From a virus, in the IMG/VR virus record IMGVR_UViG_3300036760_000327, positions 42,487 to 106,486 of that record: a DNA stretch of 64,000 nt; one strand, 5' to 3'. Position 1 is the first letter of the stretch, and each line of letters starts with the position of its first letter. Position numbers and translations under genes: made by a program. Under the pieces are notes generated by a model that saw nothing but the letters and a program-made list of their open reading frames with translations, made no database searches and was not told the origin of the DNA. Positions 3,230-44,840 of this stretch are shown in pieces.

Positions 3230-3230
3230 T

Positions 3231-3458: not shown

Positions 3459-3465
3459 CTTTCCT

Positions 3466-3603: not shown

Positions 3604-3607
3604 ATTT

Positions 3608-4329: not shown

Positions 4330-4330
4330 T

Positions 4331-8435: not shown

Positions 8436-8437
8436 AA

Positions 8438-9307
8438 TTAATCCTCAAATGTTCCTGTTATATTTACTAGTTTACCTTGTTCACAGAAATTCCAATTTTC
8501 ATTGCTGCCATTAATATAAGACTTGCTTGCTGTATTCCATCCGCCAAATCTGGATTCAAGCATTATATTATTATCTTGAGTATAATAACTGTAATAAGCA
8601 GGTGATTTTATTACATTTTTATTATACAATGCCTTAGCTATCCATTTTCTAGGATGAATATTTTCTTCTAATTGATATTCATTTTGCTTGATAACACAAT
8701 CCGGTAAATATATGTTTTTCAATGCTAACATGCTAATTCTAAGCGGCATATCAAGATCATCACATTGGAGATCTTCATTAAAAAATTGTAATTGATCTAA
8801 CATCTCGCCCTTAAAGGCCCATACACACCCGACAACCCCCGCTCTATCCGGCGATATGTATATCCAGAAATGTGGTGCCCGTTCTTCAATTTTTATTTCC
8901 TTGTAGAAAAATTCTTTACGACCAGGAGAATCTACAAAAAATGTAGGTCGAATAGCTAAAGCTGATCCAATGTCAGGATAGGACAAAGCTTTTAATATTA
9001 AATTTAACCAATTATCTGATTCAATAACTGAATCATCGTCCCATTTTATATAAATTTGTGAGGGTTGGCGTAATGACATTAAGAAATTATGTCCAAAGAC
9101 TATACCCGTATTAAAAGAATTTTGTCCAATATAATCAAATTCTTTTCTATATTTATGGATAACTTCTTTAACTTCTGGAGTTGCATTTTGATCTAAAACA
9201 GCCCATTGAAATTTAGATCTGTCTGTATGTAATAATAAGGCTTTAATACATTTTTCAGTAGCTTGAGGACGACCAAGAACGCACATTCCAATCAAAGGCT
9301 TTTTCAT
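8438..9307 (-). CDS. Glycosyltransferase family 2-like (GT-A)
   Basis: The N-terminus (PLIGMCVLGRPQATEKCI) and IYIKWDDDSVIESDNWL show a GT-A nucleotide-sugar domain; WDDD is the metal-binding DxD. GCVWAFKGEMLDQL and NEDLQCDDLDMPLRI fit the acceptor half of GT2 proteins. It is separated by two bases from the radical SAM gene and shares an ATGA with the upstream methyltransferase. Donor and acceptor are unknown. Confidence 0.85.
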   Translation of the reverse strand: MKKPLIGMCVLGRPQATEKCIKALLLHTDRSKFQWAVLDQNATPEVKEVIHKYRKEFDYIGQNSFNTGIVFGHNFLMSLRQPSQIYIKWDDDSVIESDNWLNLILKALSYPDIGSALAIRPTFFVDSPGRKEFFYKEIKIEERAPHFWIYISPDRAGVVGCVWAFKGEMLDQLQFFNEDLQCDDLDMPLRISMLALKNIYLPDCVIKQNEYQLEENIHPRKWIAKALYNKNVIKSPAYYSYYTQDNNIMLESRFGGWNTASKSYINGSNENWNFCEQGKLVNITGTFED

Positions 9308-9849
9308 TTTATACCCCGCACATAAATTTTTAATTGAATAAAGTCTTCTGGCGTAATTCCTTTAGCTTTTAATTCTACATCTTCTCGTAACATATCTAGT
9401 TGCTCCAAAGCTACATCTTTAACATTCGAAAATCCAACACTTTTTAATTCTTCTATTATCATACTTGGCCATAATAAAGACCGATGGTAATCATACGGAG
9501 TTTGTCCTTGACCGAGTATATTATATATAACATAGGAATAATATTTACCTTGGTGAAGTAAATGAACAGAACCTTCAAAATTGGGACAGGTAATAAATAA
9601 TGTTCCGTTAGGAACTAAAACTCTATAACATTCTTTTAAAAGTCTATAAATATCAGGTAATTCCAGATGTTCTATAAATTCTACTGATACAATATTGTCT
9701 ATGGATTCATCTTTATATGGAATTCCTTTTCTTAAATCCCAGATAATATCTACATTTGGATGTTCAATAATATCAATACCAATATAATCTTTATACTGAT
9801 TATATCTATTCTTTAAAGGATTTATACCGCATCCAAGATCAAGATTCAT
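9304..9849 (-). CDS. Class I SAM-dependent methyltransferase
   Basis: MNLDLGCGINPLKNRY provides motif I at the very N-terminus, followed by YIGIDIIEHPNVD, DIIWDLRKGIPYKDESID and VEFIEHLELPDIYRLLKE, the methyltransferase 11 pattern. The 181-residue length is normal for this compact type. It overlaps both neighbours by four bases, so it is made in step with the two flanking glycosyltransferases. Confidence 0.85.
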   Translation of the reverse strand: MNLDLGCGINPLKNRYNQYKDYIGIDIIEHPNVDIIWDLRKGIPYKDESIDNIVSVEFIEHLELPDIYRLLKECYRVLVPNGTLFITCPNFEGSVHLLHQGKYYSYVIYNILGQGQTPYDYHRSLLWPSMIIEELKSVGFSNVKDVALEQLDMLREDVELKAKGITPEDFIQLKIYVRGIK

Positions 9850-12017: not shown

Positions 12018-12028
12018 CTTATCTCCAG

Positions 12029-13174
12029 TTAAATATCGTTGATCCCATTAACAACTACCAGATTTTGTATTCTTTCGGCTTCTTCAAAATTCCACACTTT
12101 ATCTTCGTATCCAGGCACTTTAAGATTAGTGCCCTTCAATTTATTATACATTTCATAAAAAATAGCCGCGTGTTCTGCTATATAAGTATTGATATTATGG
12201 TGTTCTAATACATAATAATATGCTCGTTTTGCCATTGCCTCTCTTTTCTCTTTATTTTCAATAAGATATGAAATAGCACTAATCCAATCTTCTGATGCAT
12301 TACTCTTTGGAATAACTGCGCATTTCTTCTCGTCCCAACCAAGATAAGGCAATACGGGAGATAATATCATTGGTATCCCCAAAATTGCATATTCTAGAGC
12401 TTTTCTATTTGTTTTACCCCAATTAAAGGCATTATCTTGTAATGGCGCTATTCCGATATCCATATCCAATGATGCTAGTGCAGGATAGAAAGCATCTACC
12501 GGAACAAAATTATAGTACTCGTACTTATTTTTAGGCAAAGTAGCAATTGATGGCGGCAGCCATCCCATCATAATCCATTTGACTTGCGGATAATGTTTAG
12601 TAATTTTAGGAACTACATCCTTAATTATATCGGCATCTGGCTTATGATGTGGGGTTAAATGCCATCCAATTCTCAAAGTATTCTCGTCGTTTTTATCCCT
12701 TCCTGGACTTACAAATTCATTTAAATGAGATTCAACTAAATTTCGCTCTACAAACACGTTTTGATTAAATTTTAAAGCAAGTTTTTTTAAATAAGGCGTA
12801 GAAGTCGTAAGAAAATCAACCTCTTTAAGAACTTGTTCATATCGCGCAAGAACTTGTGGTGTATAAACAGATTTGGCTGGATTATCTGTGGGTAAATGCC
12901 ATACATCGTCATCTACATTACTGCCAAGTATAATTTCTTTTTGTTTGATTTTTCGTATATACATAATAATTTCAGGAACATACTGACGCTGCATCATAAA
13001 AATATCTGCATTCTCGGCTAGCGCTTGATCTAAAGTATAAATTAATTTTCCCTGAAGCAAATTAAACTTATGAAAGTATTGCAATGGTAAGAATTGAACG
13101 TGGTAGTTCTAATTAGGGCCAGAATTATCAGCTCCCACAAATAGAACTTTTAATAATTTTTTCTGGTCCATCAT
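12029..13174 (-). pseudogene. Glycosyltransferase (GT4-like) with in-frame TAG near the N-terminus
   Basis: From an ATG at 13174 preceded by AAGGAG the frame reads MMDQKKLLKVLFVGADNSG and two more residues, then TAG at 13109-13111, then continues in frame without gap as NYHVQFLPLQYFHKFNL and a GT4-like protein (GWHLTPHHKPDAD, FNWGKTNRKALEYAILGIP). The part before the stop is the first strand of a GT-B domain, so the stop interrupts one gene. A TTG at 13084 could restart, but no ribosome binding site precedes it. TAG terminates intact genes elsewhere (for example 44886), so general recoding is unlikely; nonsense mutation, readthrough or sequencing error remain. Confidence 0.7.
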
Positions 13175-30426: not shown

Positions 30427-31923
30427 TTACAGACAATCTACTGGCAAACGATGAATAGCCAAATAAGTAAATTGAGATGCCCCATAAAGTGTATCATCTA
30501 TCATTGTTTTTGTATAAGCAATTTTAATAGTATCTCCAGCAGATAAAAATATAATTGAAAAAATACTTCCTACTTGGTAAGATGCTATTCCAGGTTCTTT
30601 AATAGGACAATAAGTAGATTGATATAAATTATTATTCTTATAAATATGGACACCAATTACAGGTCTAGCAGGATACCAACTTAATGTCATATAACACTGG
30701 CTTATATCTGCCGAGCATCCAGTTGTTCCTTGCGCTGCCGTATAACCAAATCCTTGAATTCCCGATACTCCAGCAGCCGTCCATGGCAATCCAGTAGTCG
30801 GATCGTTTGCCCATGTCTGATCATAATCTACAAAGGCAGTTGTCAATAAAGTTGTATCTCCAAAATAGTTAGTATTACTTTTGCGTAACACAGCCGCCGG
30901 TCTGGTGGTATCTTCGGAATAACAAACTTGATCACACGAGCATCCAGCAGAACCGTATACTGTAGCATTACAAGTACAACTAAAGGTATAGCATGTAAAA
31001 TTACAAGAACATGCAGAGTAGCCATAACAAGTATTATTACAAGTACAACCACCGTAACCGTCCTGTGCATAACATGTATTATTACAGGAACATGCAGAAT
31101 ATCCATAACATGTATTATAACAAGTACAACTTTCCCCGTAGCATGTATTGTTGCACGTACAACCTTCACCATAGCATGAAATATTACAAACGCATCCTCG
31201 TCGTCTGCTTCTAAATCTTACGGATACATAAGTAGCCCCAGAATCTCCTGGTAACGTTGGCAGCGCACCACTAAACGTATCTGTGCTTCCGCTGGTTTGC
31301 GTAACATTTAAATCTGTATCAATAGCTGTTGGATATTCATCAATATTTTGATAATTTTCGGCCGCGCCACTTGGCGACCATGAATATGTGCCTAATCGTC
31401 CTGTTGCGGATGTAATTCCTGTATCCGTTTGAGTTCCAGAGGCAACCATTGAAGCTTGCGCAATAACTATATAATATCCCGACGCCTTTGCCGTAAATAT
31501 TCCTGTAGCATTATCATATTCATTTAAAGTATCATAATCTTCGGTATCATAAATTAAGGTCTGAGCTGATGCGCCGGCTGTTACACTAGCGCCGCTAGAC
31601 GCGTAAGCTCGTACCCGTGACCAATAATTTGATCCTATATCATTCCAGGATGCGCCATCATATCTGCGTAATATCCCGACAGTTGTATCATATGAAAGCG
31701 CTCCAGATAGTGGGGAAGAACCCGTTAATTCGGCGGTTGTCCCTTCACCCACAATGCCTACAATTCCCAATTGATGCGCTCCTGATGTTGTATTCATTGA
31801 CAAAGGACTATAATGCTCTAATTCATACGCATCTTCAATTGCATCCAGATTGTCTTGTACAACCGCAGGTATATCTTTTATTTTATGTTCTGAATTTGGA
31901 AAAGTTTTTTGCCAACTTCCCAT
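30427..31923 (-). CDS. Fibre with C1q-like domain and 23-Cys repeat insertion
   Basis: The N-terminal module (GSWQKTFPNSEHKIKDIPAVVQ, LEHYSPL, GALSYDTTVGILRRYDGASW) is shared with the next two genes. A C1q-like sandwich (DNATGIFTAKASGYYIVIAQA) begins near residue 140. Residues 244-334 are an insertion of eight repeats resembling xCxCNxTCYGxx, with 23 cysteines in 91 residues (GCTCNNTCYGE and ACSCNNTCYAQ are examples). The sandwich then resumes (GVHIYKNNNLYQSTY). Metal binding, disulfides or post-translational cross-links are possible for the repeats. Likely a receptor-binding fibre. Confidence 0.75.
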   Translation of the reverse strand: MGSWQKTFPNSEHKIKDIPAVVQDNLDAIEDAYELEHYSPLSMNTTSGAHQLGIVGIVGEGTTAELTGSSPLSGALSYDTTVGILRRYDGASWNDIGSNYWSRVRAYASSGASVTAGASAQTLIYDTEDYDTLNEYDNATGIFTAKASGYYIVIAQASMVASGTQTDTGITSATGRLGTYSWSPSGAAENYQNIDEYPTAIDTDLNVTQTSGSTDTFSGALPTLPGDSGATYVSVRFRSRRRGCVCNISCYGEGCTCNNTCYGESCTCYNTCYGYSACSCNNTCYAQDGYGGCTCNNTCYGYSACSCNFTCYTFSCTCNATVYGSAGCSCDQVCYSEDTTRPAAVLRKSNTNYFGDTTLLTTAFVDYDQTWANDPTTGLPWTAAGVSGIQGFGYTAAQGTTGCSADISQCYMTLSWYPARPVIGVHIYKNNNLYQSTYCPIKEPGIASYQVGSIFSIIFLSAGDTIKIAYTKTMIDDTLYGASQFTYLAIHRLPVDCL

Positions 31924-31931
31924 ATATTTCC

Positions 31932-32651
31932 TTACGACAGGCGATAAATGTGAATAAAATTTCTATCGCTGCCGCCTTCTAAGACAATACTTGTAGTTCT
32001 ATTATGCCAAACCCAAGTTTTAATTTTATCCCCAGCCGACAAAGAGAATAAAACCGTGGTGCCTGTTGAAATCTCATCTGCTGATAATGTATATTTTAAA
32101 TATGTACTATTATTAATTAATGCATCACTTGAATTATATTGCGCTATTTGTACTCCTATTTCAATTCCTCCAATAGCCGTAAAACTTGCCACTAGTCTAA
32201 CATAGTAAAATCCAGCGGTTTTAGCAACAAAAACATAAGATGAAGCATCGTATTCACTTAATGTATCAAATTGTTCTGTATCAAAGGGTATAACTGCCGT
32301 AGTTCCGGTTGTGACTAAATAATCAGTATTTCGATACGCGCTTACTTGACTATGCGCCAATAAATTAATCTGCTGCCAAGTACTGCCATCATATACTTTA
32401 TGCATTCCTAAAGTCGTATCTTGATATAACGCTCCCGTGGCGGGTAGTGTTACTGCCGTTATAGCTGATGTTGCTGCTGATCCCATTGCTGGAGTTATAC
32501 CAGGTTTATGTCTGCCAGAGAGTACATCAGTAAAAGTATAATGTTCTACGCCTAGAATATTCTCTATTGCGTTCCAATTATCGCCATATATTGTAGGAAT
32601 ATCTACAATATAAGATCCAGTAACTGGGACTGTCTTTGACCAACCACCCAT
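31932..32651 (-). CDS. C1q-like fibre protein, paralogue 2
   Basis: Shares the opening GGWSKTVPVTGSYIVDIPTI, EHYTF and GALYQDTTLGMHKVYDGSTW with its two neighbours. The C-terminal half (SYVFVAKTAGFYYVRLVAS, GVQIAQYNSSDALI, SLSAGDKIKTWVW) is a C1q/TNF-like sandwich, which trimerises in phage fibres. It lies between the other copies with gaps of 2 and 8 bases. Confidence 0.75.
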   Translation of the reverse strand: MGGWSKTVPVTGSYIVDIPTIYGDNWNAIENILGVEHYTFTDVLSGRHKPGITPAMGSAATSAITAVTLPATGALYQDTTLGMHKVYDGSTWQQINLLAHSQVSAYRNTDYLVTTGTTAVIPFDTEQFDTLSEYDASSYVFVAKTAGFYYVRLVASFTAIGGIEIGVQIAQYNSSDALINNSTYLKYTLSADEISTGTTVLFSLSAGDKIKTWVWHNRTTSIVLEGGSDRNFIHIYRLS

Positions 32652-32653
32652 TC

Positions 32654-33367
32654 CTAGCTTAACCTCATGATATGGATATTCCCGCCCACAATATCAACTG
32701 AAGATGTGTGTTCATGATAACATGCTAATACTATATAATCTCCAGCAGCTAAGGATAAAATATCATTGACTTCAGTAGTAACTATTGACGCACCATGAAG
32801 AACAGATTTCGTAGTTAAAACACCGTTTTTGCCAATACCAACACCTTTTGTATAATTATCAGTCGTTACGGGAAATTTCGCCGCGCCTTTAACAAAATAT
32901 GTCCCAGCCTGTGTGGCCGTAAATCGAAATGTAGTTGCATTCCATTCTCCAAGTGTGTCATAAGTGCCTGAAACAGTTGCCGAAGAGGCGCTCATAGTAG
33001 TCCATGCTGTCGTAGGAATAGTTTGGGTTCCAAATCCCTGTCGGATTCTAGAATATTTATTACTAGTTAACCGCACCCAACTAGTTCCGTTATACCGCAA
33101 AAGCTGGCCATTAGTTGTATCATATCCTATTGCTCCAGTGCCTGGCGATGTTAAAGCTGTAATGGCAGAATTAGCCGCGGTTATAAGAACTCCAAACTTG
33201 CCAAAAGTATGAGTGCCACTACCACCACTAGTAAAAGTACTATGCTCTACGTTCCACCAATCTTCTAGAGCCTCCCAATTATCCCTAACATTTTCGGTAG
33301 GATCTGTATGAGCAGAGCCACTTACTGAAGTGCTTGCTAAAGGAAAAAGCTTATTCCATCCCGACAT
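32654..33367 (-). CDS. C1q-like fibre protein, paralogue 1
   Basis: First of three tandem paralogues in transcription order. It begins MSGWNKLFPLASTSVSGSA, has EHSTF and GAIGYDTTNGQLLRYNGTSW, then the C1q-like domain (FRFTATQAGTYFVKGAAKF, LAAGDYIVLACYHEHTSS). It overlaps the SPASM-protein gene by 17 bases, which places the radical-SAM cassette and fibres in one transcript. Confidence 0.75.
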   Translation of the reverse strand: MSGWNKLFPLASTSVSGSAHTDPTENVRDNWEALEDWWNVEHSTFTSGGSGTHTFGKFGVLITAANSAITALTSPGTGAIGYDTTNGQLLRYNGTSWVRLTSNKYSRIRQGFGTQTIPTTAWTTMSASSATVSGTYDTLGEWNATTFRFTATQAGTYFVKGAAKFPVTTDNYTKGVGIGKNGVLTTKSVLHGASIVTTEVNDILSLAAGDYIVLACYHEHTSSVDIVGGNIHIMRLS

Positions 33368-34334
33368 ATCTATCCTTAATTTTTATTAACTTAGGAAATA
33401 ACTTTTTAAATTCATTACAAAATGGAGTTTTTTTATCGTATGTACCATATGCTAACTTACGCGTGTAAGGACAACCAGCCTGGCAAAGAGTGATCCACTC
33501 GCAACCTTGACATTCAAGAATATTTTTTGCACTCCAACGTTGGTGCATCTTTAATTCTTTCCAGTGTTTGTGTGTATAAATTGAACCTATTTTTGTATCT
33601 AAATCTGCATTGCAACTTCTTAATGTTCCATCTGGATCAATAACAGCAAGCCATTTACCACAACTGTAACAATTTTTAGGACTCTGCCATGTTGGATAGG
33701 TTGACTCGATGATCCAGTTCGGCCACATTGGTTTTGGTGCTGTAAGTATTAAATCTAAAACTTTATCCATTTGCCTTCCATATTCTTTAACATATTCAGG
33801 ATCTTTTCCTCCATTATATAAACGATTTATCCGAATATGTCCATTATGTTTAATAATTAATTTTGTAAGATCTACAATACGAGGCAGATTCATTTCATCC
33901 AGAACTACTGCCAAACTACATCCGTGACAAAAGTACTTAATATATTCGATCTTTTTTTCTACAATATCCAAATTATCATAAGTAGGATTTAACATGATAT
34001 AAATCTGATGCTTTTTGCATTCCTTAAGGACATCCTCTGACAAATAATCTCCGTTAGTAAATACTAAAAATTGCCCATCTAGATATGCTTTAACATGTTC
34101 AGGCAACCTTGCCTGCAATGCATTGATAAAAAAGAAAACAGTATCAATGGCTATAAATGGTTCACCTCCTAAGAAATTAACTCTTAGGGATTTAACGTTT
34201 TCCTCTTTACATATATCCACTATCCAGTTCGCACTATCCAGCGCAACTTGAGGAGACATCGCGCTTTCACCGTGTGGCCAATAACAATATGGACACACAC
34301 GATTACAATTATTTGTAATATAAACAAAAATCAT
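33351..34334 (-). CDS. Radical SAM/SPASM-domain protein A
   Basis: YITNNCNRVCPYCYW is the canonical CxxxCxxC cluster motif; NFLGGEPFIAI is the conserved GGEP. The C-terminal domain has NCYSCGKWLAVIDPDGTLRSC, then CQGCEWITLCQAGCPYTRK and a final FCNEF, matching SPASM auxiliary Fe-S sites. Such proteins usually modify peptides (anSME, sactipeptide or quinone maturases). It is the last of five overlapping genes placed between internal protein and fibre genes. Confidence 0.88.
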   Translation of the reverse strand: MIFVYITNNCNRVCPYCYWPHGESAMSPQVALDSANWIVDICKEENVKSLRVNFLGGEPFIAIDTVFFFINALQARLPEHVKAYLDGQFLVFTNGDYLSEDVLKECKKHQIYIMLNPTYDNLDIVEKKIEYIKYFCHGCSLAVVLDEMNLPRIVDLTKLIIKHNGHIRINRLYNGGKDPEYVKEYGRQMDKVLDLILTAPKPMWPNWIIESTYPTWQSPKNCYSCGKWLAVIDPDGTLRSCNADLDTKIGSIYTHKHWKELKMHQRWSAKNILECQGCEWITLCQAGCPYTRKLAYGTYDKKTPFCNEFKKLFPKLIKIKDRYVGME

Positions 34335-35035
34335 TAAAGCGTCGATTGAAAATCCCTCACTTGCTGTGCGGCCTTATTCATCTCTGACAGCCACTGTTCA
34401 ATCTTATTTTCAGAACGACCAGGAACAGCCATCATATATTTTTTTAAATCCATATTTTTATATATATCGCCATTTATTTCGATTAAAATATAAGGATAAC
34501 TCAAAACATTAAACCTTTTTTTAATTAGAATATATTTTTGGACATTTATCCCGTCGCTTTCAAATCTTGGACTAGCGCATGTAAGCATATCTCTATTGAT
34601 TGCGTCCATAAAAAATTCTGAGTTATTTTTAACCGGCACATAACAATATAAATTATTACCCATGCCAGACATAAAAATAATATGTAATAGATCAGCTATC
34701 GCATATCTAGAATATTTTGTATGAATATACTCTTTCCGCACTAATTTAAAATAATAAAAATCGTTATTAGAATAACCATCGGGATTGTCTAAAAATTCCA
34801 TAAGTACGATACTACAAATATTAGAATCATTCTTTTTTACTCTAACACAATATTGCCTGCTCATTCTTTTACCCTTAGGAATATATCCCCCAATTTTATT
34901 AAGAACTATTTGGCACGGGTCATGTTCAAAATAATATTTGACTTTATTACTTTCTTTTTCAGGAATATCGTGTATATCTATATAATGAACTCCTGTCATA
35001 TAACATCCACCAGGAGGTAATAACCTATCATACAT
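34334..35035 (-). CDS. Unknown protein of radical-SAM cassette (233 aa)
   Basis: The C-terminal half resembles the layout of a GNAT fold (RYAIADLLHIIFMSGMGNNL then VPVKNNSEFFMDAINRDML) but lacks a convincing acetyl-CoA loop, so I do not assign it. The N-terminus reads MYDRLLPPGGCYMTGVHYID. It shares one base with the SPASM gene and overlaps the 211-residue gene by eight, so the three are expressed together. It could act on the same substrate as the radical SAM enzymes. Confidence 0.6.
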   Translation of the reverse strand: MYDRLLPPGGCYMTGVHYIDIHDIPEKESNKVKYYFEHDPCQIVLNKIGGYIPKGKRMSRQYCVRVKKNDSNICSIVLMEFLDNPDGYSNNDFYYFKLVRKEYIHTKYSRYAIADLLHIIFMSGMGNNLYCYVPVKNNSEFFMDAINRDMLTCASPRFESDGINVQKYILIKKRFNVLSYPYILIEINGDIYKNMDLKKYMMAVPGRSENKIEQWLSEMNKAAQQVRDFQSTL

Positions 35036-35663
35036 AAAATTTATATTTCCTGCATGTTCCTAGATCTATAATTTGATTTGGTATAGGCATATTTGAATCC
35101 GTATAATTAACTGGCAATATTTGATATATTTCTTTCTTATTTAAGTAATTAAAACAAAAGGTTAAAAATTCTTTACTGCATTCTTGCATAATATTATCAT
35201 TTCTTAGAGTTACTGGGCGATACCACAAAGCCTTGTCTCGATAATGAAATAAAATTTCCTTTGAAACCGCCTGCCCATCATAAATAATATACCAAGAATC
35301 TGCTGCATCATAAACAACATCATCAACTAAAAAAGATAACAAATAATCCGTAGACGCGTGATCTTCTTTAAAATCCATTCTAGTTTGTCTGCTGGCCGCT
35401 ACAAAACTCAATATCTCTATGTTCCCGTTTTTATATCTTATATTTGGAACTTCCGTATCTATTGTAATTTGACCCGAAACATATCTTTTAATCATATCCT
35501 CAATAGAATAATTATCTAGAGATAAGGCAGTATATTTATTAACTAATTCAATCCAAGGAGTAATTGTAATTAAACTAATATTATCTTCTTCCAATGCAGG
35601 AATAGGATAATTAATATTTTTTCTTAGACGTAACGAATTAGCAAATGGATAAAGTCTTGGCAT
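35028..35663 (-). CDS. Unknown protein of radical-SAM cassette (211 aa)
   Basis: A mixed alpha/beta sequence starting MPRLYPFANSLRLRKNINY with SWYIIYDGQAVSKEILFHYR in the middle and a short aromatic end (CRKYKFYV). No motif recognised. It lies between the HxGH protein and the 233-residue protein with an eight-base overlap, which argues for joint function. Confidence 0.6.
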   Translation of the reverse strand: MPRLYPFANSLRLRKNINYPIPALEEDNISLITITPWIELVNKYTALSLDNYSIEDMIKRYVSGQITIDTEVPNIRYKNGNIEILSFVAASRQTRMDFKEDHASTDYLLSFLVDDVVYDAADSWYIIYDGQAVSKEILFHYRDKALWYRPVTLRNDNIMQECSKEFLTFCFNYLNKKEIYQILPVNYTDSNMPIPNQIIDLGTCRKYKFYV

Positions 35664-35668
35664 AATTT

Positions 35669-36463
35669 TTAATTATAATAATCAACCTCTTCAACAATTG
35701 ATGTTCCACGATCTGTCAAAAACTCGAATAGTACCATTTCCAGTCGTCCTGGTACCATTCCTCCTTCATATACTGCAACAGCTTTTATATTCCAAGGTTT
35801 ACTACTATAAGCACTATTTAACTCGGCTATCAAATCATGATTTTTACCAGGTTTAAAATAAGGTTTTGCGCCATCTATAACAGAACGTAACCGATTAATA
35901 TGTGCATTACAAAAAGATGGCAAATAATCAAGAGAACCTTGTTCTTTAATTTTATTCTCTTTATTTTTAATTATTTTAGAATAAATTTTTACTTCCGGAC
36001 CGCCGATCAATTTCCGAACTGAATTTTGAAAGAACGATACTAATTCTGGACCTCTTACATATACATCGCTTCTGGAAATGGTTGAATGTGTAAAAGCAAA
36101 TAATCCCATTAAAAGTACGGTAGCTCTCCATTTATATTCGTCTAAAAGTAAGGCATCATTATAAAGCGACACTAGAGCACTAGCCTTTTTGTACATAGCC
36201 GCTCTTTGTGGTTCTGGAATTGGTTGAACATTTACTTCTTCCATTGGAACATTTATTTTATTAATATCCTTATACATTTTTGGCGATACTGGTTGAGGAA
36301 TAAACGGGCCCCCATGCGTGAGGTGTTGCCTCCAATTTCTTGCATCCTTAATAACTTTAATAATTGGATTGCCTGGAAATTCCTTAGCAAAATTAATTAC
36401 TTGTAAATGTCCATTATGTAATCCTGATACATGATCTGCTATAGGTATTATTACTCTGCTCAT
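35669..36463 (-). CDS. HxGH nucleotidylyltransferase-superfamily protein, PanC-like
   Basis: IPIADHVSGLHNGHLQVI contains HNGH in the place of the HxGH of pantoate-beta-alanine ligase (compare its GxLHxGHxxL) and other adenylyl-forming enzymes. Around residue 130 TISRSDVYVRGPE resembles the second PanC motif (SSRNxYLxxE). The family activates a carboxylate with ATP and joins an amine, so this could be an amide-forming partner of the SPASM enzymes. Sequence match is limited to the motifs, so family is likely but reaction is unknown. Four-base overlap with radical SAM B. Confidence 0.55.
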   Translation of the reverse strand: MSRVIIPIADHVSGLHNGHLQVINFAKEFPGNPIIKVIKDARNWRQHLTHGGPFIPQPVSPKMYKDINKINVPMEEVNVQPIPEPQRAAMYKKASALVSLYNDALLLDEYKWRATVLLMGLFAFTHSTISRSDVYVRGPELVSFFQNSVRKLIGGPEVKIYSKIIKNKENKIKEQGSLDYLPSFCNAHINRLRSVIDGAKPYFKPGKNHDLIAELNSAYSSKPWNIKAVAVYEGGMVPGRLEMVLFEFLTDRGTSIVEEVDYYN

Positions 36464-37710
36464 TTAATTTTTTTCTCTAATACAGCGATCCTATTATTCA
36501 AATCTGATACCAATAAAGCTAAAGTTTCTACAGTTATTTGAGGATGATTAGTTGGCCCAGTATAATTTGCATTATAACAATCACAACTAAATCTTTCGCC
36601 TTGATATGGCATGCAACTTACATCCTTTGTATTTTCCACCATTCTCTCTTTATAATATTGGGATACTCTTTTTTGCATCTCAACATATCTACATACCTGA
36701 AAATAAGGTTTAGTAATATCTTTATTAAAATCCCAGTTTACCATATAGCACCCGCCCCAGCACGGACTTGTTCCCCAGCATCCCTTACCTTTACATTCAG
36801 GCTCAAAATTAATAAATTTCTCCCGAATTTCTGGTTTAGTAATCCCTTGGTCAATATGTCCTAAACATAATTCTTGTTCTATAAAAGGTCGATTATCATT
36901 AAATTTTTCGGCACGATGACAACTAAAAATATATCCCTCATGATTAATATGACAATAATTACGACCACTTCCGCAGGGCCAGCGGCTATTATCTGGACCA
37001 ATATAGGATTTAAAATGTTCTATTTCAACCTTTCTTCCTTTTAATTTAAGTTCTGCCATATAATCTACAACTTGTTTACATTGATTTTCCCATATATTCC
37101 ATTTTTCTTCTGTCCAATTTGATTCGTAGACAGGCGAAAACATTAAATAATTACATCCAAGATCAAAAATATATTTACAATCTTCATAAAAATGATCTAT
37201 TCTTTCAGCAAAAGGAGACATCCGTACTCTATAAAAGGGCCACTTGTTTAATATTTGCTTTAAATTTTTTTCTACAATTGCATGAGATCCAAAACCTTGT
37301 TTTGTCTTTCTATGATAATCATGTGTTTCTTTTGTCCCGTCAAAACTGATCATAAAAAATATTTTATGTTCGTCTAAGAAAGAAAAACGCTCTGGAACTA
37401 ACAAAGTTCCATTAGTTGTGCCTCCAAATTGAATAGGAATAGCTGTTCTTTTCGACATGTCTTCTGCATATAGTGTAATATCTTTTAATAAATCCCACTT
37501 TAATAAAGGCTCGCCCCCCCAAAAAGAAATTTCAACTTGTCGTTCATTTTCATCCGCCAATAAAGCATTAGTAAATAACCATTCTATTGCTTTAAACGCT
37601 ATTTCTTTGGACATATCCCCTTCTGTGCAACCATAAGTAAAGCACGGATAAGTACACCTAAGATTACACGAACGAGTTAAATTAAAAGAAGCCCGAGTTA
37701 AATTATACAT
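36460..37710 (-). CDS. Radical SAM/SPASM-domain protein B with CxxxCxxxC cluster site
   Basis: SCNLRCTYPCFTYGC gives C-x3-C-x3-C, one residue longer than the normal CxxxCxxC; codons in the DNA are unambiguous. ISFWGGEPLLKW is the GGEP strand, MISFDGTKETHDYHR the usual downstream site. The SPASM part includes CGSGRNYCHINHEGYIFSC and CKGKGCWGTSPCWGGC, then CRYVEMQKR. The C-terminus (ALLVSDLNNRIAVLEKKIK) has a short coiled coil. It starts the five-gene cassette. Possible roles: peptide maturase or glycan/aminoacyl modifying enzyme. Confidence 0.85.
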   Translation of the reverse strand: MYNLTRASFNLTRSCNLRCTYPCFTYGCTEGDMSKEIAFKAIEWLFTNALLADENERQVEISFWGGEPLLKWDLLKDITLYAEDMSKRTAIPIQFGGTTNGTLLVPERFSFLDEHKIFFMISFDGTKETHDYHRKTKQGFGSHAIVEKNLKQILNKWPFYRVRMSPFAERIDHFYEDCKYIFDLGCNYLMFSPVYESNWTEEKWNIWENQCKQVVDYMAELKLKGRKVEIEHFKSYIGPDNSRWPCGSGRNYCHINHEGYIFSCHRAEKFNDNRPFIEQELCLGHIDQGITKPEIREKFINFEPECKGKGCWGTSPCWGGCYMVNWDFNKDITKPYFQVCRYVEMQKRVSQYYKERMVENTKDVSCMPYQGERFSCDCYNANYTGPTNHPQITVETLALLVSDLNNRIAVLEKKIK

Positions 37711-37721
37711 CTTGTACCTTT

Positions 37722-38795
37722 TTACTTATGAGATATTTGAGTTGGTGGTCCTTTACTTGATGGTGGCAACGCATTTCCCAAAGGCAATAAAGTATCAATA
37801 TAATCTAATACACCTCCGGGCTGGTAGAAAAAATTAATATCCTCTTGGGATAGGCCAGCAAATGGATTTACTCCCATGTATGAAATTAAAGGCCCACTTA
37901 CATCACCCCCGACAATACCCCTTCCAGGAGTATAATATGCCGATATCAATGATTTTTCCCCCCCAGCTCCTTTTCCTAAACTAGCTGGTTGATTAGCTTT
38001 ATCTCTTGCTTCTAATATCTTCCACCATTTTTCAAGAGGAGAACCAACGGGAGGAGTCCATGGTGTAAGCGTATCAAGGCTTTCGCTTTGATATCCTCCT
38101 TGACCTATTAGTTCCATCAATCCATGGGGAGAGAACAATTGTGAAGCGTAAGGCGCCCAATCTTGCAAATACCATTGTGAACTAGCAGCATCGGTTGGTC
38201 GCGCCAACGTAGGAGCGGGCTTCCCATATCCAGCTTTTGTGGTAGGATCATATTCCTCTTTCCACGTTCCCTGGGACCCCCACCTAGGATCTAAATACTT
38301 TCTTTGCTGTGCTGCAAACCAGTCTGGTGATATTGGTTCATTTGCAAGAGGATCTTTACCGCCCAGAACACCCTGCAATAATCCTCCTAGTACAGAACCA
38401 ACAAACGGAATAGCAGACAGATAGCTACTATATGGATTAGTAAAAGTATTTTGTCCTGCCATAAATGCTCCCAAACCACCTAGGGTTGCTCCTCCCAGAG
38501 AAGCGGCTGGCAGAACGCCAAGTTGTTGTCCTACGGTAGAACCCAAATTACTAGTTATGTAATTCAAAGCCGGATTGCTATTAGGTATAGCTGTATTTAA
38601 TATAGATGACAAAAAGCCAGGAGCACCGCCAGCTAAAGCCGCGGATAAATCTTGATTGCCCAATAATGTATTTCCTAAAACACTTCCAGCATATTTTCCA
38701 ATAGGACTGGTATATTTTCGTTCTTCTCCACCTAAAATATTTCCAAGTAATCCTCCTGCTGTGCTTCCAAGTTGGCTATAATTTATATTAACCAT
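37722..38795 (-). CDS. Gly-rich internal/ejection-like virion protein
   Basis: Residues 1-155 are Gly/Leu/Ala-rich with several hydrophobic segments (STAGGLLGNILGG, GSVLGGLLQGVLGG), suited to membrane insertion during DNA entry. The second half is polar and Pro/Trp-rich (KYLDPRWGSQGTWKEEY). It follows the adaptor gene by 13 bases, a position often taken by ejection proteins in short-tailed phages. Confidence 0.6.
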   Translation of the reverse strand: MVNINYSQLGSTAGGLLGNILGGEERKYTSPIGKYAGSVLGNTLLGNQDLSAALAGGAPGFLSSILNTAIPNSNPALNYITSNLGSTVGQQLGVLPAASLGGATLGGLGAFMAGQNTFTNPYSSYLSAIPFVGSVLGGLLQGVLGGKDPLANEPISPDWFAAQQRKYLDPRWGSQGTWKEEYDPTTKAGYGKPAPTLARPTDAASSQWYLQDWAPYASQLFSPHGLMELIGQGGYQSESLDTLTPWTPPVGSPLEKWWKILEARDKANQPASLGKGAGGEKSLISAYYTPGRGIVGGDVSGPLISYMGVNPFAGLSQEDINFFYQPGGVLDYIDTLLPLGNALPPSSKGPPTQISHK

Positions 38796-40159: not shown

Positions 40160-40549
40160 TCACTCACCCATATCATCTCTTTTTAAGAGGTTTAGGCGCG
40201 TTTTTAATGGTTGTACATAATCTTTAGGATCGTTGGTTGTGAATTTAAATTCTTGAAATTCGATACCAACTTCTGCCTGGTCCCTTTTGATAATCAAATG
40301 TGGAAGCATAATTTTTAATAGTCTATATGCTTGTTCATCTTTCCATTTTGCCCTAAATTGTCCCCCAGAAATTCTACCAATAATAGCATCAAACATTTGT
40401 AAGAATTTCATAAGTTCCGTATATTTAGAGGTGATCCATACATATAATGATGAATCAGATAAATTTTTCTTGTCTACAATTATCTTGATGCTCCCATGAA
40501 TATCAAAAATTCCTGCCGTATAAGCAATTTCGGATCTATTGTACCTCAT
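40160..40549 (-). CDS. LAGLIDADG homing endonuclease-like protein, short
   Basis: YTAGIFDIHGSIKIIV aligns with the LAGLIDADG helix, with GEGS replaced by IHGS, and IMLPHLIIKRDQAEVGIEF matches the second half of related enzymes (ILPYLIVKKEEALVGL in the gene before it). At 129 residues it is short and the altered motif may mean reduced activity. No intron features surround it. It lies ten bases before the C2H2 gene. Confidence 0.7.
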   Translation of the reverse strand: MRYNRSEIAYTAGIFDIHGSIKIIVDKKNLSDSSLYVWITSKYTELMKFLQMFDAIIGRISGGQFRAKWKDEQAYRLLKIMLPHLIIKRDQAEVGIEFQEFKFTTNDPKDYVQPLKTRLNLLKRDDMGE

Positions 40550-40573
40550 ATATCCTCCATTGAATTTTAAGTG

Positions 40574-40619
40574 CTGGAGGCTTCTGCTTTCTTTCGATTG
40601 CTTTTAATGAAGCCTCCAG
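40574..40619. other. 10-bp perfect stem-loop between two homing endonuclease genes
   Basis: CTGGAGGCTT (40574-40583) is complementary over all ten bases to AAGCCTCCAG (40610-40619), loop 26 bases. There is no U-run on either side. It could protect the 3' end of the capsid transcript, act as an attenuator, or be the remains of an intron. The 92-base gap holds nothing else. Confidence 0.5.
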
Positions 40620-40641
40620 GTTAAAGGTTAAAAACTAAATG

Positions 40642-41091
40642 CTAAAGACTCAGTTTTTTAAGTTCACTAAGTTTTACTCGCAAAGATTCTCGATAAACGA
40701 TAGTATCTTCCGATAGACCACGTGCACCATTAGATGTCCCCATTAAATCCTTATGTTTCTGTAAAGTTAAGCCAACCAAGGCTTCTTCTTTCTTTACAAT
40801 TAAATAAGGTAAAATCAATGTTAACATCTTTGCTGCCTTTCGATCCATCATAACTGCAACCCAGCATCGTTTCCAATGCGGTAATTGAGATTTCGCTGTA
40901 CGCTCTCGAATATAAAATCCAAGTTCCTTAAGAAAAATCATCAATTTAGCAGATGTATTAGTAATTTGCAACTTCAATCGGTATCGCTTACTACGATAAC
41001 CTTTATTAACTTTAGCTGCATTAATTCTAATACAACCCTCGCCATCTACAATCCCCGCAAGATATATTATCTTAGTGGTCGCTTCATCCAT
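40642..41091 (-). CDS. Free-standing LAGLIDADG homing endonuclease
   Basis: IYLAGIVDGEGCIRI is a good LAGLIDADG motif with the catalytic Asp, and LTLILPYLIVKKEEALVGL is the characteristic later helix. ATG 41091 is preceded by TGGAGGTGG; the ATG at 41106 lies on that site itself and is not used. The gene begins 42 bases after the MCP stop and has no exon downstream, so it is intergenic rather than intronic. The family relationship to the three intron-borne enzymes suggests local spread. Confidence 0.85.
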   Translation of the reverse strand: MDEATTKIIYLAGIVDGEGCIRINAAKVNKGYRSKRYRLKLQITNTSAKLMIFLKELGFYIRERTAKSQLPHWKRCWVAVMMDRKAAKMLTLILPYLIVKKEEALVGLTLQKHKDLMGTSNGARGLSEDTIVYRESLRVKLSELKKLSL

Positions 41092-41133
41092 TGTAACCAC
41101 CTCCATAATAAAATACTCAATGATTTCAATAAC

Positions 41134-44100
41134 TTAGCCGGTTACCCCGGTCAACAACCCGTGCTTTTCTTCGTTGTGGAATTCAAATCCGACTTCGCAG
41201 ATGTATTGCAATTTGTTGCTGTCTTTTCAGACGAGTCAAACATTTCTGTTGACTTCTTAATGTTCCCATTAAGTTCGGACTGTGTCTTCTGATCATTAAG
41301 ATCTGGGCTATGTACAGTCTCTACAGGAATTATAAGATCATAAGTTCTATTAATTTTATCTACTTTTTTGATTAAAGAATTAAACGCTTTTGTATATTCT
41401 TTATCATGCACATATCCATTGTCTTTAACTAATGTATTTCTATAATTTAAGAAACTACATATCAAATCAGCAATGGATTTTTTTAAGCCCACCATACATT
41501 TCCTAGTAATGTTTAAAATTCTATGAACATCATTAAACTTTGATATTACCAAACGGTAACATTGTCTAGTTCTTAGTCCATTTGGATTGGATACTGAATA
41601 TATTTTAACTGGATGCTCTAGTTCTTTCTCAAAAACTGATTTAGCCCAATTAATAATACCTATATCAGTATTACTAATCTCTATTCCAAGATGCGGCGAA
41701 CTTAAACAATTCTCACCAGTTCGTTTGTATGGTCTGCATACTCTAATTGAACCTTCTGATTCAATCAACATGCTTAATCTGGCGACGTCTTTAAGCTTCA
41801 TAAAAAGCACCTCCTTGGCATGTCTTACGATCTGATTATTTCCCTCGGCGTTGTCCATTCTAGGACTTTCACCGATTAAATAGCCTTTTACAAGGACCAA
41901 TTGTCGATCCTTCACGAAATCGTCCCCTGGATGTTGAATATCAGCTTCCATGGTCACGTCTCTATTTTGTAAGAAACGATAGACCATTTCATCTAACTTC
42001 AATCCAAAGGCATATCCACCATAAAGAGCGGTATTGCTAACAGAACCAGCATTCTCTAACATATAATCCTTAATCAGATTCAAGGTTCCATGAGGAGAAA
42101 GGTATTGCGCTATCGCAATTCCGTACGTTCTATCTTTGGGGTACATTTGAAGTTTTCCTTGTGCCCACTGGCTGATTACTGAAATAATCAGCGGGGATGC
42201 AAACAGATAAACTTCATCTCCACCAAAGCGCGTCACTGTCCTAATGAATGCCTCAAAATCTGCTTCAGTAAGGATTCCACCCACTGCTGTAACGTTAGTG
42301 TTGATAAAGAAATCAGCTCCACCAGATGTCCGTCTAGCATGGGTAATAGTAGAATCTAATCCCGAAGAAGTGTCTTCTAATCTTTCTCCGTACAAAGCCA
42401 TTCGCTCGATGTCGCGCATAAGCTCGATGCCTTTAACTTTCCGCTCGTATGCACGGTAATTTCCGCCATCAATTGTGTTATTCTGAATCCTTAAGATTCA
42501 ACTCTTTGCATCGCTGCAAAGTTCGGACTGTATCATCATCCATCCCTAATGGAATGGATGCCTTACGTGCGGTCTCTGAGGAAATATATTTAGGTTTGCG
42601 CTGTATTTCATACCGTTCAAACCAACGATTAATTTGTTCTTCAGAAATTGTTTTTCGTAAATTCGTATAGCCTTGTTGTTGCCTCCACTTAATATATTCT
42701 AGCAAAAACATAGCTAAGTATTTCTTATTTCGCAAATAGGGTAAAATAGCATTTAAAAACTTTTTACAGGTATTTAGCCCATTTGATTCGATCTTAAGAG
42801 CCATATTCCATTTTTTATTTCTAAGATTATTCTTTTGCAAACTAAAATGAAAGTTAATGCTTAAAGCATACAAAATATTACTAATTTCCTTAATCATTAT
42901 TTCATCACAGTTCGTAACAGAAATACCTGTCGCTATCCATCCATATTTATGACCGGATGATTTATCCATATCTTTCTTTCTGAAAAACATGATGGAACCT
43001 TCTCCATCAATAATACCAGCTAACCAAGCTAAATCGGTATCTTTTATAATCATTTTATATCTCCTGCTGATTAACCCCACCTTTCTCTTTTACCAAACAG
43101 GTGGAAAGGATACTGGGTTTTTCCAGCATTTTATAAGGTTTTCATTATATCATTACTGATATACGCTGCATGCCTTATACAGCTCGGAATTTAACATAGT
43201 ATTAGTCACCTCAACGGATTTTCTAATAGTCTGTAAATAGTTATAGACTCTTGCGGCTTTGCGACTCTTTGTATAAAGAGCAGTAGAAGGAGATCCTTCT
43301 TCAAAGGCTGCACCGATGATCACCATCGTTGCTGCATTGGCTGCCGAGGCCGCGGCTGTAGCACCATAAGCTCTAATAGCTGTTACAGCGCACGCTGCTG
43401 TAGCTGTTACTAAAATAACTTCGCCGGTTGAAGGAATTTTAACCAAGTCATACTTGTTAAAATAATTACCTTCGCCCGAGGCTACAGTTAATCCAGTAGC
43501 TGCTGACGTAGCAGAAGCTGCTAATGAAGACCAACTCGGATTAAGATCCAGATGTGTATTCTAGTCATTACTGACTAGCTCGGACTTTATCATCATCTTG
43601 CGATGTTTCACGTAAAGTCTCTGAGGAACGGAGTTTTGTCAAATCAAGTACGCTATTAGCCAATCGTGGAAGATGTAACATATTATATCTTTCTGCTTTT
43701 GCGAGTTTATGTTTCTCTATTAACTGATTAACATAATCTCGATCAATATAATCTTTATATCTCCCATCAGGTCCGCGGTTTTTTATTAATTGTTCGCGAT
43801 AATTTGCGTATTCTAGCATGATATCTACTTCTGCTTGTTTGGTTTTTAAGTAAGGACGTATCATTTCTATTAATTTTCTACAACTCCCCGTACTATTACA
43901 AACTATTGTAATAGCATGATTTTGTTTACCGTGTAAATTATAAGCATTAATAGTATAATGAAATTTTAGTCCTAACTTATGCCACATTTCACTAACAGCT
44001 CTAATCATATATGGATTAGTATTACAAACCGTAACTATCATAGAGATAAATGTTGCCATATCACTCTTATTTAATTGTTTTCTTGATTGGTAACACAACA

Positions 44101-44840
44101 TTAAACATCCTTCTCCTTCTATGATAGCCGCTAGCCATGCTTTATCTTGCTCTGACAACATATAATTTCCTTTCCTGCTGATTGTCCCGCCAAAGGAATT
44201 GTCACATAATGTATCCTTGACATAGGAGTTTCCAGCATATGGTGAAATTTTATGAGAACAATGTTGTTTATTCTCAGGCCATTCTACTGTAGTGTTGATG
44301 GCTACCCTTTTGTTAAGCTTTGAAACCAAAACGTACAAAGGCATAAATGTTAACTGCAATTTCGTATTACGATTATTTTTGCAGATCAGACTGTCGCATC
44401 ATCTTTCGATGTCTCCTCGCTCAGTCGTTCACGGTGCTTTCGCTTCCGCCCTGTTGTCCATCTCTGGATGTCCAAGTCAATCAGAGGAGATTTATAGCGG
44501 CCCGCTTTGTCAAGCCGCCTCTGGCTGTAAAAGATAAATTTTATCCAAATTTGTTAATGATTTCAATAAGTTATGAAATCATGCTTGCTCATTTCTGTCA
44601 AGCTCTGCATATTCATTTATATGCAGTTCAGACTGTCGCTTCTACTTTCGTAGTCTCTCCACTCAGTCGTTGCAACTGCACGGCTTTCGCCTGCTTGTTG
44701 AGGGTTGCCATCTCAGGTGTTCCCCATTAATCAGGAGAGATTTTATATGACCAAGTAGTTTACCAAGCCATATCCACCACACGTAGATTTGACAATATGT
44801 TTTGTGAGCCTGTTCCGCCCGTTACCATTGTTGCTGCCAT
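41134..44840 (-). CDS. Major capsid protein, 399 aa from six exons: join(44766-44840, 44513-44545, 44270-44341, 43179-43560, 41907-42469, 41134-41208)
   Basis: The spliced frame is uninterrupted. Junction residues are ...VVDMA|DKIYLLQPEAA|PLYVLVSKL..., VEWPEN|NTHLDLNPSW, NSEL(Y)GGNYRAYERK and GDDFVKD|QYICEVGFEF, ending KHGLLTGVTG. Joined, it resembles SU10-like (DUF5309-type) capsid proteins: YNYLQTIRKSVEVTNT, GIELMRDIERMALYGE, QWAQGKLQMYPKDRTYGI, QYLSPHGTLNL and YGGYAFGLKLDEMVYRFL. Start ATG 44840 has AGGAGGT ten bases upstream; the scaffold-like gene lies just before. Exons are 75, 33, 72, 382, 563 and 75 nt. Unspliced, each fragment meets a stop quickly, so splicing is needed for a capsid. 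Confidence 0.93.
41151..41801 (-). CDS. Intron 5 LAGLIDADG homing endonuclease (216 aa)
   Basis: ATG 41801 is preceded by AAGGAGGTG. LSMLIESEGSIRV is the LAGLIDADG helix (LIESEGS); ISNTDIGIINWAKSVF, YRLVISKFNDVHRIL and MVGLKKSIADLICSFL fit the fold. The frame is also open upstream through exon 5, so an unspliced message could give a capsid-endonuclease fusion. The C-terminal 20 codons read the 3' exon in another frame and the core region (VETVHSPDLNDQKTQSEL) is translated too. Catalytic residues look intact. Confidence 0.85.
   Translation of the reverse strand: MKLKDVARLSMLIESEGSIRVCRPYKRTGENCLSSPHLGIEISNTDIGIINWAKSVFEKELEHPVKIYSVSNPNGLRTRQCYRLVISKFNDVHRILNITRKCMVGLKKSIADLICSFLNYRNTLVKDNGYVHDKEYTKAFNSLIKKVDKINRTYDLIIPVETVHSPDLNDQKTQSELNGNIKKSTEMFDSSEKTATNCNTSAKSDLNSTTKKSTGC
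41209..41906 (-). ncRNA. Group I intron 5 of MCP (698 nt, with homing endonuclease)
   Basis: The 5' exon ends AAGGAT and pairs with GTCCTT inside the intron (P1, U.G at the splice site). The 3' exon starts CAAT, complementary to ATTG just before the guide sequence (P10). The intron ends in G. The P7-like motif ACAGTCCGAAC lies at 41273-41286 on the complementary strand. Removing it joins GDDFVKD to QYICEVGF. The endonuclease frame starts about 105 bases inside and runs past the 3' splice site. Confidence 0.85.
41907..42469 (-). CDS. MCP exon 5 (563 nt)
   Basis: Encodes from the last two bases of a Tyr codon through GGNYRAYERKVKGIELM to GDDFVKD, 187 complete codons. This holds most of the conserved capsid sequence, including QWAQGKLQMYPKDRT and the YGGYAFGL strand. 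Without splicing at its 5' end no start codon with a ribosome site is present; an ATG inside (RDIERM) is not a plausible start. Confidence 0.88.
42470..43178 (-). ncRNA. Group I intron 4 of MCP (709 nt, with homing endonuclease)
   Basis: The 5' exon ends GCTGT, pairing with GCAGC in the intron (P1; U.G at the site). The intron ends in G before ATGGCGGAAAT. The exon junction rebuilds ELYGGNYRAYERK by splitting a Tyr codon after its first base. The P7-like ACAGTCCGAAC is at 42521-42534 (complement). Other possible junctions were tested by hand and either lose the U.G pair or the capsid-family spacing. Confidence 0.83.
42478..43056 (-). CDS. Intron 4 LAGLIDADG homing endonuclease (192 aa)
   Basis: ATG 43056 has AGGAGAT upstream and is preferred over an earlier ATG without a site. 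AWLAGIIDGEGSIMFF is a perfect LAGLIDADG helix; FLNAILPYLRNKKYLAMFL is the later conserved helix and RQQQGYTNLRKTISEEQINRW follows. The C-terminal ISSETARKASIPLG and DDDTVRTLQRC translate the intron catalytic core. The stop lies eight bases before the 3' splice site. Confidence 0.88.
   Translation of the reverse strand, partial: KMIIKDTDLAWLAGIIDGEGSIMFFRKKDMDKSSGHKYGWIATGISVTNCDEIMIKEISNILYALSINFHFSLQKNNLRNKKWNMALKIESNGLNTCKKFLNAILPYLRNKKYLAMFLLEYIKWRQQQGYTNLRKTISEEQINRWFERYEIQRKPKYISSETARKASIPLGMDDDTVRTLQRCKELNLKDSE
43179..43560 (-). CDS. MCP exon 4 (382 nt)
   Basis: Codes for NTHLDLNPSWSSLAASATS through YNYLQTIRKSVEVTNTMLN and SEL, ending in the first base of a Tyr codon. The middle (NKYDLVKIPSTGEVILVTA) is the typical second part of SU10-like capsid proteins. 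The unspliced frame reads KACSVYQ and stops 15 bases after the splice site. Confidence 0.88.
43561..44269 (-). ncRNA. Group I intron 3 of MCP (709 nt, with homing endonuclease)
   Basis: TGAGAAT at the end of exon 3 pairs over seven positions with GTTCTCA in the intron, with U.G at the splice site. AAT of the 3' exon can pair with ATT before the guide (P10). The intron ends GACTAG. P7-like AAAGTCCGAGC at 43578-43591 (complement). An alternative 5' site four codons earlier gives a sensible frame but no P1. Confidence 0.85.
43568..44161 (-). CDS. Intron 3 LAGLIDADG homing endonuclease (197 aa)
   Basis: ATG 44161 follows AGGAAAGGAAATTAT. KAWLAAIIEGEGCLML is the LAGLIDADG helix and LIEMIRPYLKTKQAEVDIML the second conserved helix. 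Toward the C-terminus RSSETLRETSQDDDKVRAS is translated from the intron core and echoes the sequence in intron 4. The frame also extends upstream through the intron start into exon 3. Confidence 0.88.
   Translation of the reverse strand: MLSEQDKAWLAAIIEGEGCLMLCYQSRKQLNKSDMATFISMIVTVCNTNPYMIRAVSEMWHKLGLKFHYTINAYNLHGKQNHAITIVCNSTGSCRKLIEMIRPYLKTKQAEVDIMLEYANYREQLIKNRGPDGRYKDYIDRDYVNQLIEKHKLAKAERYNMLHLPRLANSVLDLTKLRSSETLRETSQDDDKVRASQ
44342..44512 (-). ncRNA. Group I intron 2 of MCP (171 nt, no ORF)
   Basis: P1 is GGCGGCT with GGCCGCT, U.G at the splice site; P10 is a perfect five-base CTTTG/CAAAG between the 3' exon and the start of the intron. The intron ends in G (ATG) before CCTTTGTACG. The P7-like ACAGTCTGATC is at 44384-44397 (complement). 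Only 171 bases, near the lower size limit of a group I core. Related to intron 1 by AACGACTGAG and GACAGTCTGA. Confidence 0.85.
44546..44765 (-). ncRNA. Group I intron 1 of MCP (220 nt, no ORF)
   Basis: ATATGGCT at the end of exon 1 pairs over eight positions with GGTCATAT (P1), U.G at the site. The intron ends in G before GATAAAATT. Hairpins GGCGAAAGCC and CTACGAAAGTAG and the P7-like ACAGTCTGAAC (44625-44639 complement) sit in the usual order for a minimal group I core. Splicing turns DMAW-stop into DMADKIYLLQPEAA. Confidence 0.87.

Follow-up and report, generated by a model that had tools for sequence, protein, structure and literature searches.

Radical S-adenosylmethionine (SAM) enzymes that carry a SPASM domain act as peptide maturases: they cleave SAM to create a radical at a carbon atom of the substrate, and in the ranthipeptide and related types that atom becomes bonded to a substrate cysteine. 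Cross-linking of cysteines inside a functional protein by a SPASM enzyme has its best precedent in QhpD, from the quinohemoprotein amine dehydrogenase system (TIGR03906). His-Xaa-Ser (HxsB/HxsC), CXXX-repeat and Cys-every-fifth maturation systems act on repeat substrates with one or two SPASM enzymes. Among the ranthipeptide maturases, PapB (NF047865) and CteB (TIGR03974) have Cys-rich substrates encoded beside the enzyme gene, and PapB joins Cys to Asp or Glu (PMC9413430). Here we describe a minus-strand cassette of five open reading frames (ORFs), in the order A, B, C, D and E, in which A and E are radical SAM/SPASM enzymes and which is followed by fibre genes, one of them with a cysteine-repeat tract. 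The cassette lies in a window of 64,000 nucleotides, the whole stretch analysed, which is part (positions 42,487 to 106,486) of the 106,486-base IMG/VR virus record IMGVR_UViG_3300036760_000327. It is probably a maturation system for a virion protein, in which A and E modify the Cys tract, by analogy with the known maturases most likely through thioether links.

Radical SAM genes have been noted in phages since at least 2010 and were explained as metabolic helpers or as activators of anaerobic enzymes (PMC2853527, PMC3322345), with methylation as a further proposed role (PMC3322345). Campylobacter phage CP220 and its relatives are reported to possess 11-12 such genes, for which a metabolic use was suggested, and a 21-bp repeat was described inside CPT_0180, the two being left unconnected (PMC2853527). 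This repeat translates to CTC[DN]CNY. The CPT_0180-CPT_0184 region of CP220 (locus L252; L and G numbers are our handles for viral loci and records) thus encodes a repeat protein, annotated as hypothetical (2137-3741), 2.2 kb before a SPASM enzyme (5947-7116), and this cultured phage offers a practical test case, although it differs from the window in its repeat unit and enzyme clade and has no B, C or D. The family phrog_1802 (phage radical SAM domain-containing) takes in A, E and CP220 gp136 (2e-66), under a name that carries neither a function nor a proposed substrate. No literature linking enzyme and tract was found in the set searched, which was without preprints and held few subscription papers. 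The statement of an initial annotation of this DNA that no phage system of this composition had been described holds for everything searched, but the related enzymes belong to an existing family that is present in cultured Campylobacter phages. Dozens of phages that otherwise differ from one another show the enzyme together with a Cys-repeat tail protein, a pairing that appears not to have been described before.

The tract in the window (Table 1) lies in the third fibre-like protein and follows the tighter consensus C-[ST]-C-[ND]-x-[TS]-C-Y-G-x2-3. All seven strict matches to the repeat DNA pattern in the window fall in this gene, with 0.16 expected by shuffling and a maximum of one in any shuffle. 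In a set of 17 proteins with 145 units in all, Asn or Asp occupies position 4 in 92%, Cys position 7 in 88% and Tyr position 8 in 82%; these percentages are descriptive, as positions 1 and 3 are set by the search rule itself, which also restricts the remaining ones. Homologues of the third fibre in L002, L003 and L141 contain 7 to 28 repeats, the largest number being in L002. A second repeat type, C-T-C-[NDQ]-C-N-Y, is often found immediately ahead of the S74 intramolecular-chaperone domain in fibre proteins. The carriers are fibre genes in the window group (window, L002, L003 and L141), lambda-J-like tail-tip proteins in L144 and L145, and S74-chaperone fibres in the large phages L163, L170 and L157. 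Short, stand-alone repeat proteins lie beside the enzyme in L050 (204 residues) and L058 (185 residues, from a phage that also has a baseplate wedge gene), and the carrier in L123 is also short and stand-alone (about 130 residues). By the strict rule L144 has no repeats, while two or three units can be discerned by eye in its J-like protein. A third Cys-repeat type (CxxCDGDxC), missed by the strict rule, overlaps the start of a divergent A enzyme in L151 (8530-9978).

Repeat and enzyme are associated in both directions. A scan of 2.9 million viral contigs for the type-1 repeat returned 13 records with true repeats, the window included, after the low-complexity wrong-frame artefacts that dominated the first scan had been cleared by demanding Asn/Asp and reading frames. 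A radical SAM enzyme is encoded in 13 of the 13 (12 by PF04055, and L050 through a tblastn match to E with 53% identity) and radical SAM proteins, mostly several each, in 44 of the 47 records from the type-2 scan, compared with 1 of 46 viral control records, which were those found only through low-complexity artefacts of the repeat scan. The combined Fisher p of 4e-25 is uncorrected for near-identical contigs, and near-duplicates among the loci include L145/L146, L150/L152 and L154/L155/L179. In the reverse direction, similarity to A was the sole criterion by which 43 viral loci were collected, and a Cys-tract ORF is present in the fetched flank of 37 of them, many with the second repeat type; the background is one in 28 pieces of comparable phage DNA, L214 having been removed from this set as itself a repeat locus. 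Distant relatives of A, considered as repeat-free controls, were dropped when a looser Cys-tract search revealed that most of them carry a different Cys repeat. In 84,980 bacterial and archaeal genomes the type-1 repeat gave six matches, all low-complexity artefacts, and thus no cellular source of type 1 was found.

Enzyme clade predicts repeat type. On a tree of 36 enzymes, repeat type requires 7 changes, compared with a shuffled mean of 19.7, and none of 200 shuffles was as low. Furthermore, most A lineages carry a repeat-like motif at their own C-terminus: outside the repeat proteins, C-x-C-[NDYHF]-x-x-x-Y occurs 17 times in 578,000 translated residues, and 15 of these 17 occurrences are at the C-termini of A enzymes, CDCYNANY of the window among them. 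The motif therefore ties the enzyme to the tract independently of gene distance.

The assignment of two SPASM enzymes to the cassette was borne out. Both pass the PF04055 Radical_SAM cut-off of 29.5 bits (A, 37.8 bits, 2.9e-9; E, 33.8 bits, 4.9e-8), the SPASM domain of E reaches 42.3 bits with TIGR04085 (cut-off 27), and A matches radical SAM/SPASM maturase profiles across its whole enzyme part, with nearly invariant SPASM cysteines (C246, C264, C306, C317, C321 and C340). The matches to phrog_1802 cover residues 5-362 of A (6.2e-27) and 2-317 of E (1.3e-19). Among curated profiles, A matches PapB (NF047865, 4.9e-61), the SCIFF maturase (TIGR03974, 4.2e-42), the QhpD type (1.2e-40), CcpM (4.5e-36) and the repeat-maturase profiles CXXX (5.8e-29), HxsB (4.5e-22) and CefB (9.3e-18), all below the cut-offs, as illustrated by 206.8 bits against 340 for the PapB equivalog and 144.6 bits against 425 for the SCIFF maturase. 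The solved structure nearest to the A family is 5wgg (1.6e-55 with the family profile), CteB, the SCIFF maturase. This grouping with peptide-modifying SPASM maturases of Cys-rich substrates supports a role in maturation of the tract. Like PapB and CteB, A combines a radical SAM with a SPASM domain; however, what it is proposed to act on is a repeat domain within a tail protein rather than a short leader-core peptide, and its own sequence begins with the catalytic domain and closes with a substrate-like motif. No SCIFF precursor peptide was found beside A among the window ORFs, and the repeat tract is instead in the fibre. QhpD, for its part, is cellular and periplasmic rather than part of a virion repeat system, and the HxsB/HxsC, CXXX and Cys-every-fifth systems have other repeat motifs and are bacterial. 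Intein-like insertions in two A enzymes (L064, 2266-4569; L147, 1449-3119), at different places near SPASM cysteines and ending in HN before a Cys, suggest that the enzyme is well conserved and important.

Table 1. Features of the cassette and its flanks, in window positions.
Feature	Position	Strand	Length (residues)	Basis or remarks
Flanking protein upstream of the cassette	37722..38795	-	357	the internal protein of the initial annotation
A, radical SAM/SPASM enzyme	36460..37710	-	416	nearest to ranthipeptide maturases (PapB, SCIFF/CteB)
Substrate-like motif CDCYNANY at the C-terminus of A (residues 376-383)	36562..36585	-		motif count
B, HxGH protein with PanC (pantothenate synthetase) fold	35669..36463	-	264	motif, AlphaFold2 and PDB matches
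C, orphan protein	35028..35663	-	211	no profile match
D, GNAT acyltransferase fold	34334..35035	-	233	AlphaFold2 and Foldseek
E, second radical SAM/SPASM enzyme	33351..34334	-	327	PF04055, TIGR04085, phrog_1802
First fibre-like protein, no Cys tract	32654..33367	-	237	phrog_35360 tail fibre, 5.5e-7; paralogous to the next two (tblastn)
Second fibre-like protein, C1q/BclA-like C-terminus, no Cys tract	31932..32651	-	239	phrog_13286 tail, 7.8e-8; BclA_C 3.1e-5, below cut-off
Third fibre-like protein, carrier of the Cys tract, proposed substrate	30427..31923	-	498	C1q 5.3e-5, just above cut-off; phrog_13286 tail, 1e-5
Cys-repeat tract, 8 units of C-x-C-[ND]-x-x-C-Y-G (looser, C-x-C-[ND/Y]-x-x-[C/V]-Y)	30913..31194	-		spacing of 11-12 residues; 24% Cys

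From these observations a mechanism can be proposed by analogy. The tract is inferred to be the substrate of the radical SAM enzymes, and the chemistry most likely to be expected from the enzyme family is thioether formation. A, with E as its partner, would use SAM-derived radicals on the Cys tract of the adjacent fibre, and the product would be a series of intramolecular thioethers that run from repeat cysteines to nearby carbon atoms. Multiple links are proposed on the basis of the ranthipeptide mechanism, the many cysteines of the tract and the Asn/Asp and Tyr present in each unit; the conserved Asn/Asp after the second Cys, or the Tyr, would be the candidate acceptor, the position of the link being without a confident prediction. 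Thioethers, unlike disulfides, could be made ahead of assembly despite the reducing conditions of the cytoplasm, and could also withstand the environment outside the cell; the result would be a rigid cross-linked domain on the receptor-facing tail, although what benefit the phage might draw from it is a matter of speculation. The initial annotation had envisaged a modification pathway for a virion protein or a surface compound; the first of these is now strongly supported, with the tract of the third fibre or its counterparts as the probable target, and the second found no support. If this proposal is correct, RiPP-like chemistry (that of ribosomally synthesized and post-translationally modified peptides) would be part of the virion, with a bearing on host recognition and particle stability, and the cassettes would be a source of new cross-linking enzymes acting on repeat proteins. 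Phage radical SAM genes would gain a specific candidate substrate in the Cys-repeat domains of tail proteins, and routine peptide searches of virion proteomes are predicted to miss the tract proteins. Whether the scheme extends further is a more tentative matter, on which we lean slightly towards doubt: SPASM enzymes might constitute a general, hitherto undescribed phage maturase class that builds non-reducible Cys-repeat cross-links on receptor-binding tail proteins across tail structures. The number of repeats would then be able to grow and shrink as a variable of host range, and the enzyme would carry its own substrate motif in tethered form.

The layout of the cassette proved to be as the initial annotation had described it in position and close packing of its ORFs, all of them on the minus strand: A and B overlap by 4 bp, B and C are separated by 5 bp, C and D overlap by 8 bp, D and E share 1 bp, and E overlaps the first fibre gene by 17 bp. 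Its placement between an internal protein and fibre genes was likewise confirmed, the upstream flanking protein having no Pfam match and no significant PHROG match; the three fibre-like genes are all present, while the Cys-repeat tract of the third had gone unmentioned. A gene-neighbourhood comparison found the order A-B-(C)-D-E to be kept across independent viral contigs, from which it follows that the cassette is not a chance arrangement. However, a homologue of C occurs in only one record besides the window (G003; L141 in the module listing), and the five genes are a variable module, not an obligate set or one fixed pathway. Its core is A with the Cys tract, and E is frequent. The window, L002, L003, L141 and L145 have B and D alongside E, and L050 and L144 have D without B. 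In L003 (6661-8699), D and E are duplicated upstream of A, beside a second, short Cys-repeat protein.

The description of B as a PanC-like HxGH protein is right at the level of the fold. H16, G18 and H19 are invariant in six homologues, and the AlphaFold2 model built from the homologue alignment (predicted local distance difference test score, pLDDT, 84.6) has PanC enzymes as all of its top 22 PDB matches (best E 6e-8, template modelling score about 0.5-0.6). Window B has no match to PF02569, the PanC family, and its best homologue scores 11.5 bits against a cut-off of 20.7. Short peptide patterns revealed no relatives of B in viral contigs or among 50,697 phage records, and its homologues were reached solely via A and E loci. 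Of the two proteins that had been left as unknown, D was modelled with pLDDT 88 and a predicted template modelling score of 0.85 and has the GNAT strand/helix order; Foldseek returned GNATs down to 7.6e-6 and 83 PDB matches under 0.001, mostly GNATs among the matches listed. The acyl-CoA P-loop Q/RxxGxG/A is not conserved in D, where the window has HTKYSRYA and only L144 a glycine-rich loop. Thus B and D share the PanC and GNAT folds, respectively, but differ from these enzymes in that identity is about 10-14% and Pfam cut-offs are not reached. The other of the two, C, stays without a match in Pfam, PHROGs and NCBIfam. As a speculation, B, C and D may serve in some lineages as optional helper enzymes that perhaps carry out an additional acyl or amide modification.

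Several findings weigh against a role of A and E in cross-linking the tract. The cluster motif of A in the window is CX3CX3C (CNLRCTYPC), with an extra proline, whereas homologues of A have the canonical CX3CX2C, so that this copy may be impaired; E, with CNRVCPYC, has the canonical CX3CX2C and is intact. The motif of A could be a tolerated variant, the mark of an inactive copy or an error. The match of A to CteB begins at residue 98 of the latter, and A is thus without the N-terminal region of CteB/SCIFF maturases. In addition, components of the module can be present where the tract is missing: L142, a 15.9-kb fragment, has A only, without the repeat, B, D, E or the C-terminal motif, and in L187 (101.8 kb) neither A nor a Cys repeat accompanies B, D, E and a second E. 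Finally, the closeness of enzyme to tract within single records is of only modest significance (combined p 0.005), the two lying 22 kb apart in G008 and 25 kb apart in G011, and co-inheritance of enzyme and repeat in related phages could also yield the pattern seen on the tree.

The modest closeness, in particular, would be in line with the possibility that the Cys repeats receive no modification and serve in metal binding or disulfide formation, the radical SAM enzymes merely co-travelling with them in an exchangeable host-range region. There is a parallel in pelagimyophages, which are reported to differ by exchangeable radical SAM cassettes in a host-recognition cluster (PMC7029224). Nevertheless, we regard co-travel as unlikely, as the association is nearly obligate in both directions and spans different tail architectures, repeat type follows enzyme clade, the enzymes themselves carry the repeat motif, and characterised members of the enzyme family modify Cys-rich peptides.

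The composition of L187 means that E, B and D may act on a different target, either instead of the tract or in addition to it. In that record (6347-12355), B, D, E and the second E adjoin an SGYSG-repeat fibre, and the search of the record revealed no Cys repeat; an SGYSG fibre is also present in L050. One might therefore suppose that the enzymes modify another fibre of this kind, or a surface compound, and that B and D build or transfer a group, PanC folds being ones that join carboxylates to amines. This would account for E, B and D at most, since A is nearly always paired with a Cys tract, and no SGYSG fibre lies near the cassette in the window, L002, L003 or L035; we consider it improbable, a little more so than co-travel. 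A further alternative is release of a RiPP-like toxin or signal, for which the Cys-repeat proteins would be precursors and not virion parts. Some carriers are indeed short and stand-alone (L050, L058 and L123), and the enzymes resemble bacteriocin and ranthipeptide maturases. However, the tract of the window and of most relatives is internal to a large fibre, a tail-tip J protein or an S74-chaperone fibre, and neither a leader peptide nor a protease or exporter was seen among the neighbouring ORFs; in the window it lies inside the 498-residue fibre rather than in a short leader-core precursor, and no protease or exporter profile matched in the cassette. Such a released product is very improbable. 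Least credible of all is a viperin-like or other metabolic or defence function of the radical SAM proteins that has no connection with the tail. The CP220 authors proposed a metabolic benefit (PMC2853527), and PADLOC gives weak matches to prokaryotic viperins (1e-10 to 5e-12), but these matches span only the common radical SAM core, profiles of peptide maturases score far higher (206.8 bits for PapB), SPASM is present and the genes are positioned in the tail module; a viperin or defence role was therefore rejected.

Some further loci with radical SAM genes came to light. Matches H2, H3 and H6, filed as human faecal 'Bacteriophage sp.', are clostridial SCIFF loci (peptide KGGCGECQTSCQSACKTSCTVG) and were excluded from the phage evidence. 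Three records filed as human-gut bacteriophage, MT835472, MT835702 and MT837264 (L248, L250 and L251), contain loci for a clostridial SCIFF peptide and maturase; their origin is probably bacterial. In Erwinia phage Caitlin (L257), two radical SAM genes (9037-11275) lie near a 68-residue peptide (7912-8118) that ends in CGGSCSWTCSGGCSHGAGNR and is a possible RiPP-like precursor. A further radical SAM match is found away from the cassette in G002 and G003. The window itself contains a separate minus-strand cluster (3799-12017), in which a B12-type radical SAM protein (7059-8435; HpnJ/BchE-like, 6e-26) is accompanied by methyltransferase-like and glycosyltransferase-like genes. Elsewhere in the window (40160-44359, minus strand), several LAGLIDADG-looking ORFs lie in and around a major-capsid-like gene that seems to be split or to be fused with them, and the L003 version of this gene is uninterrupted.

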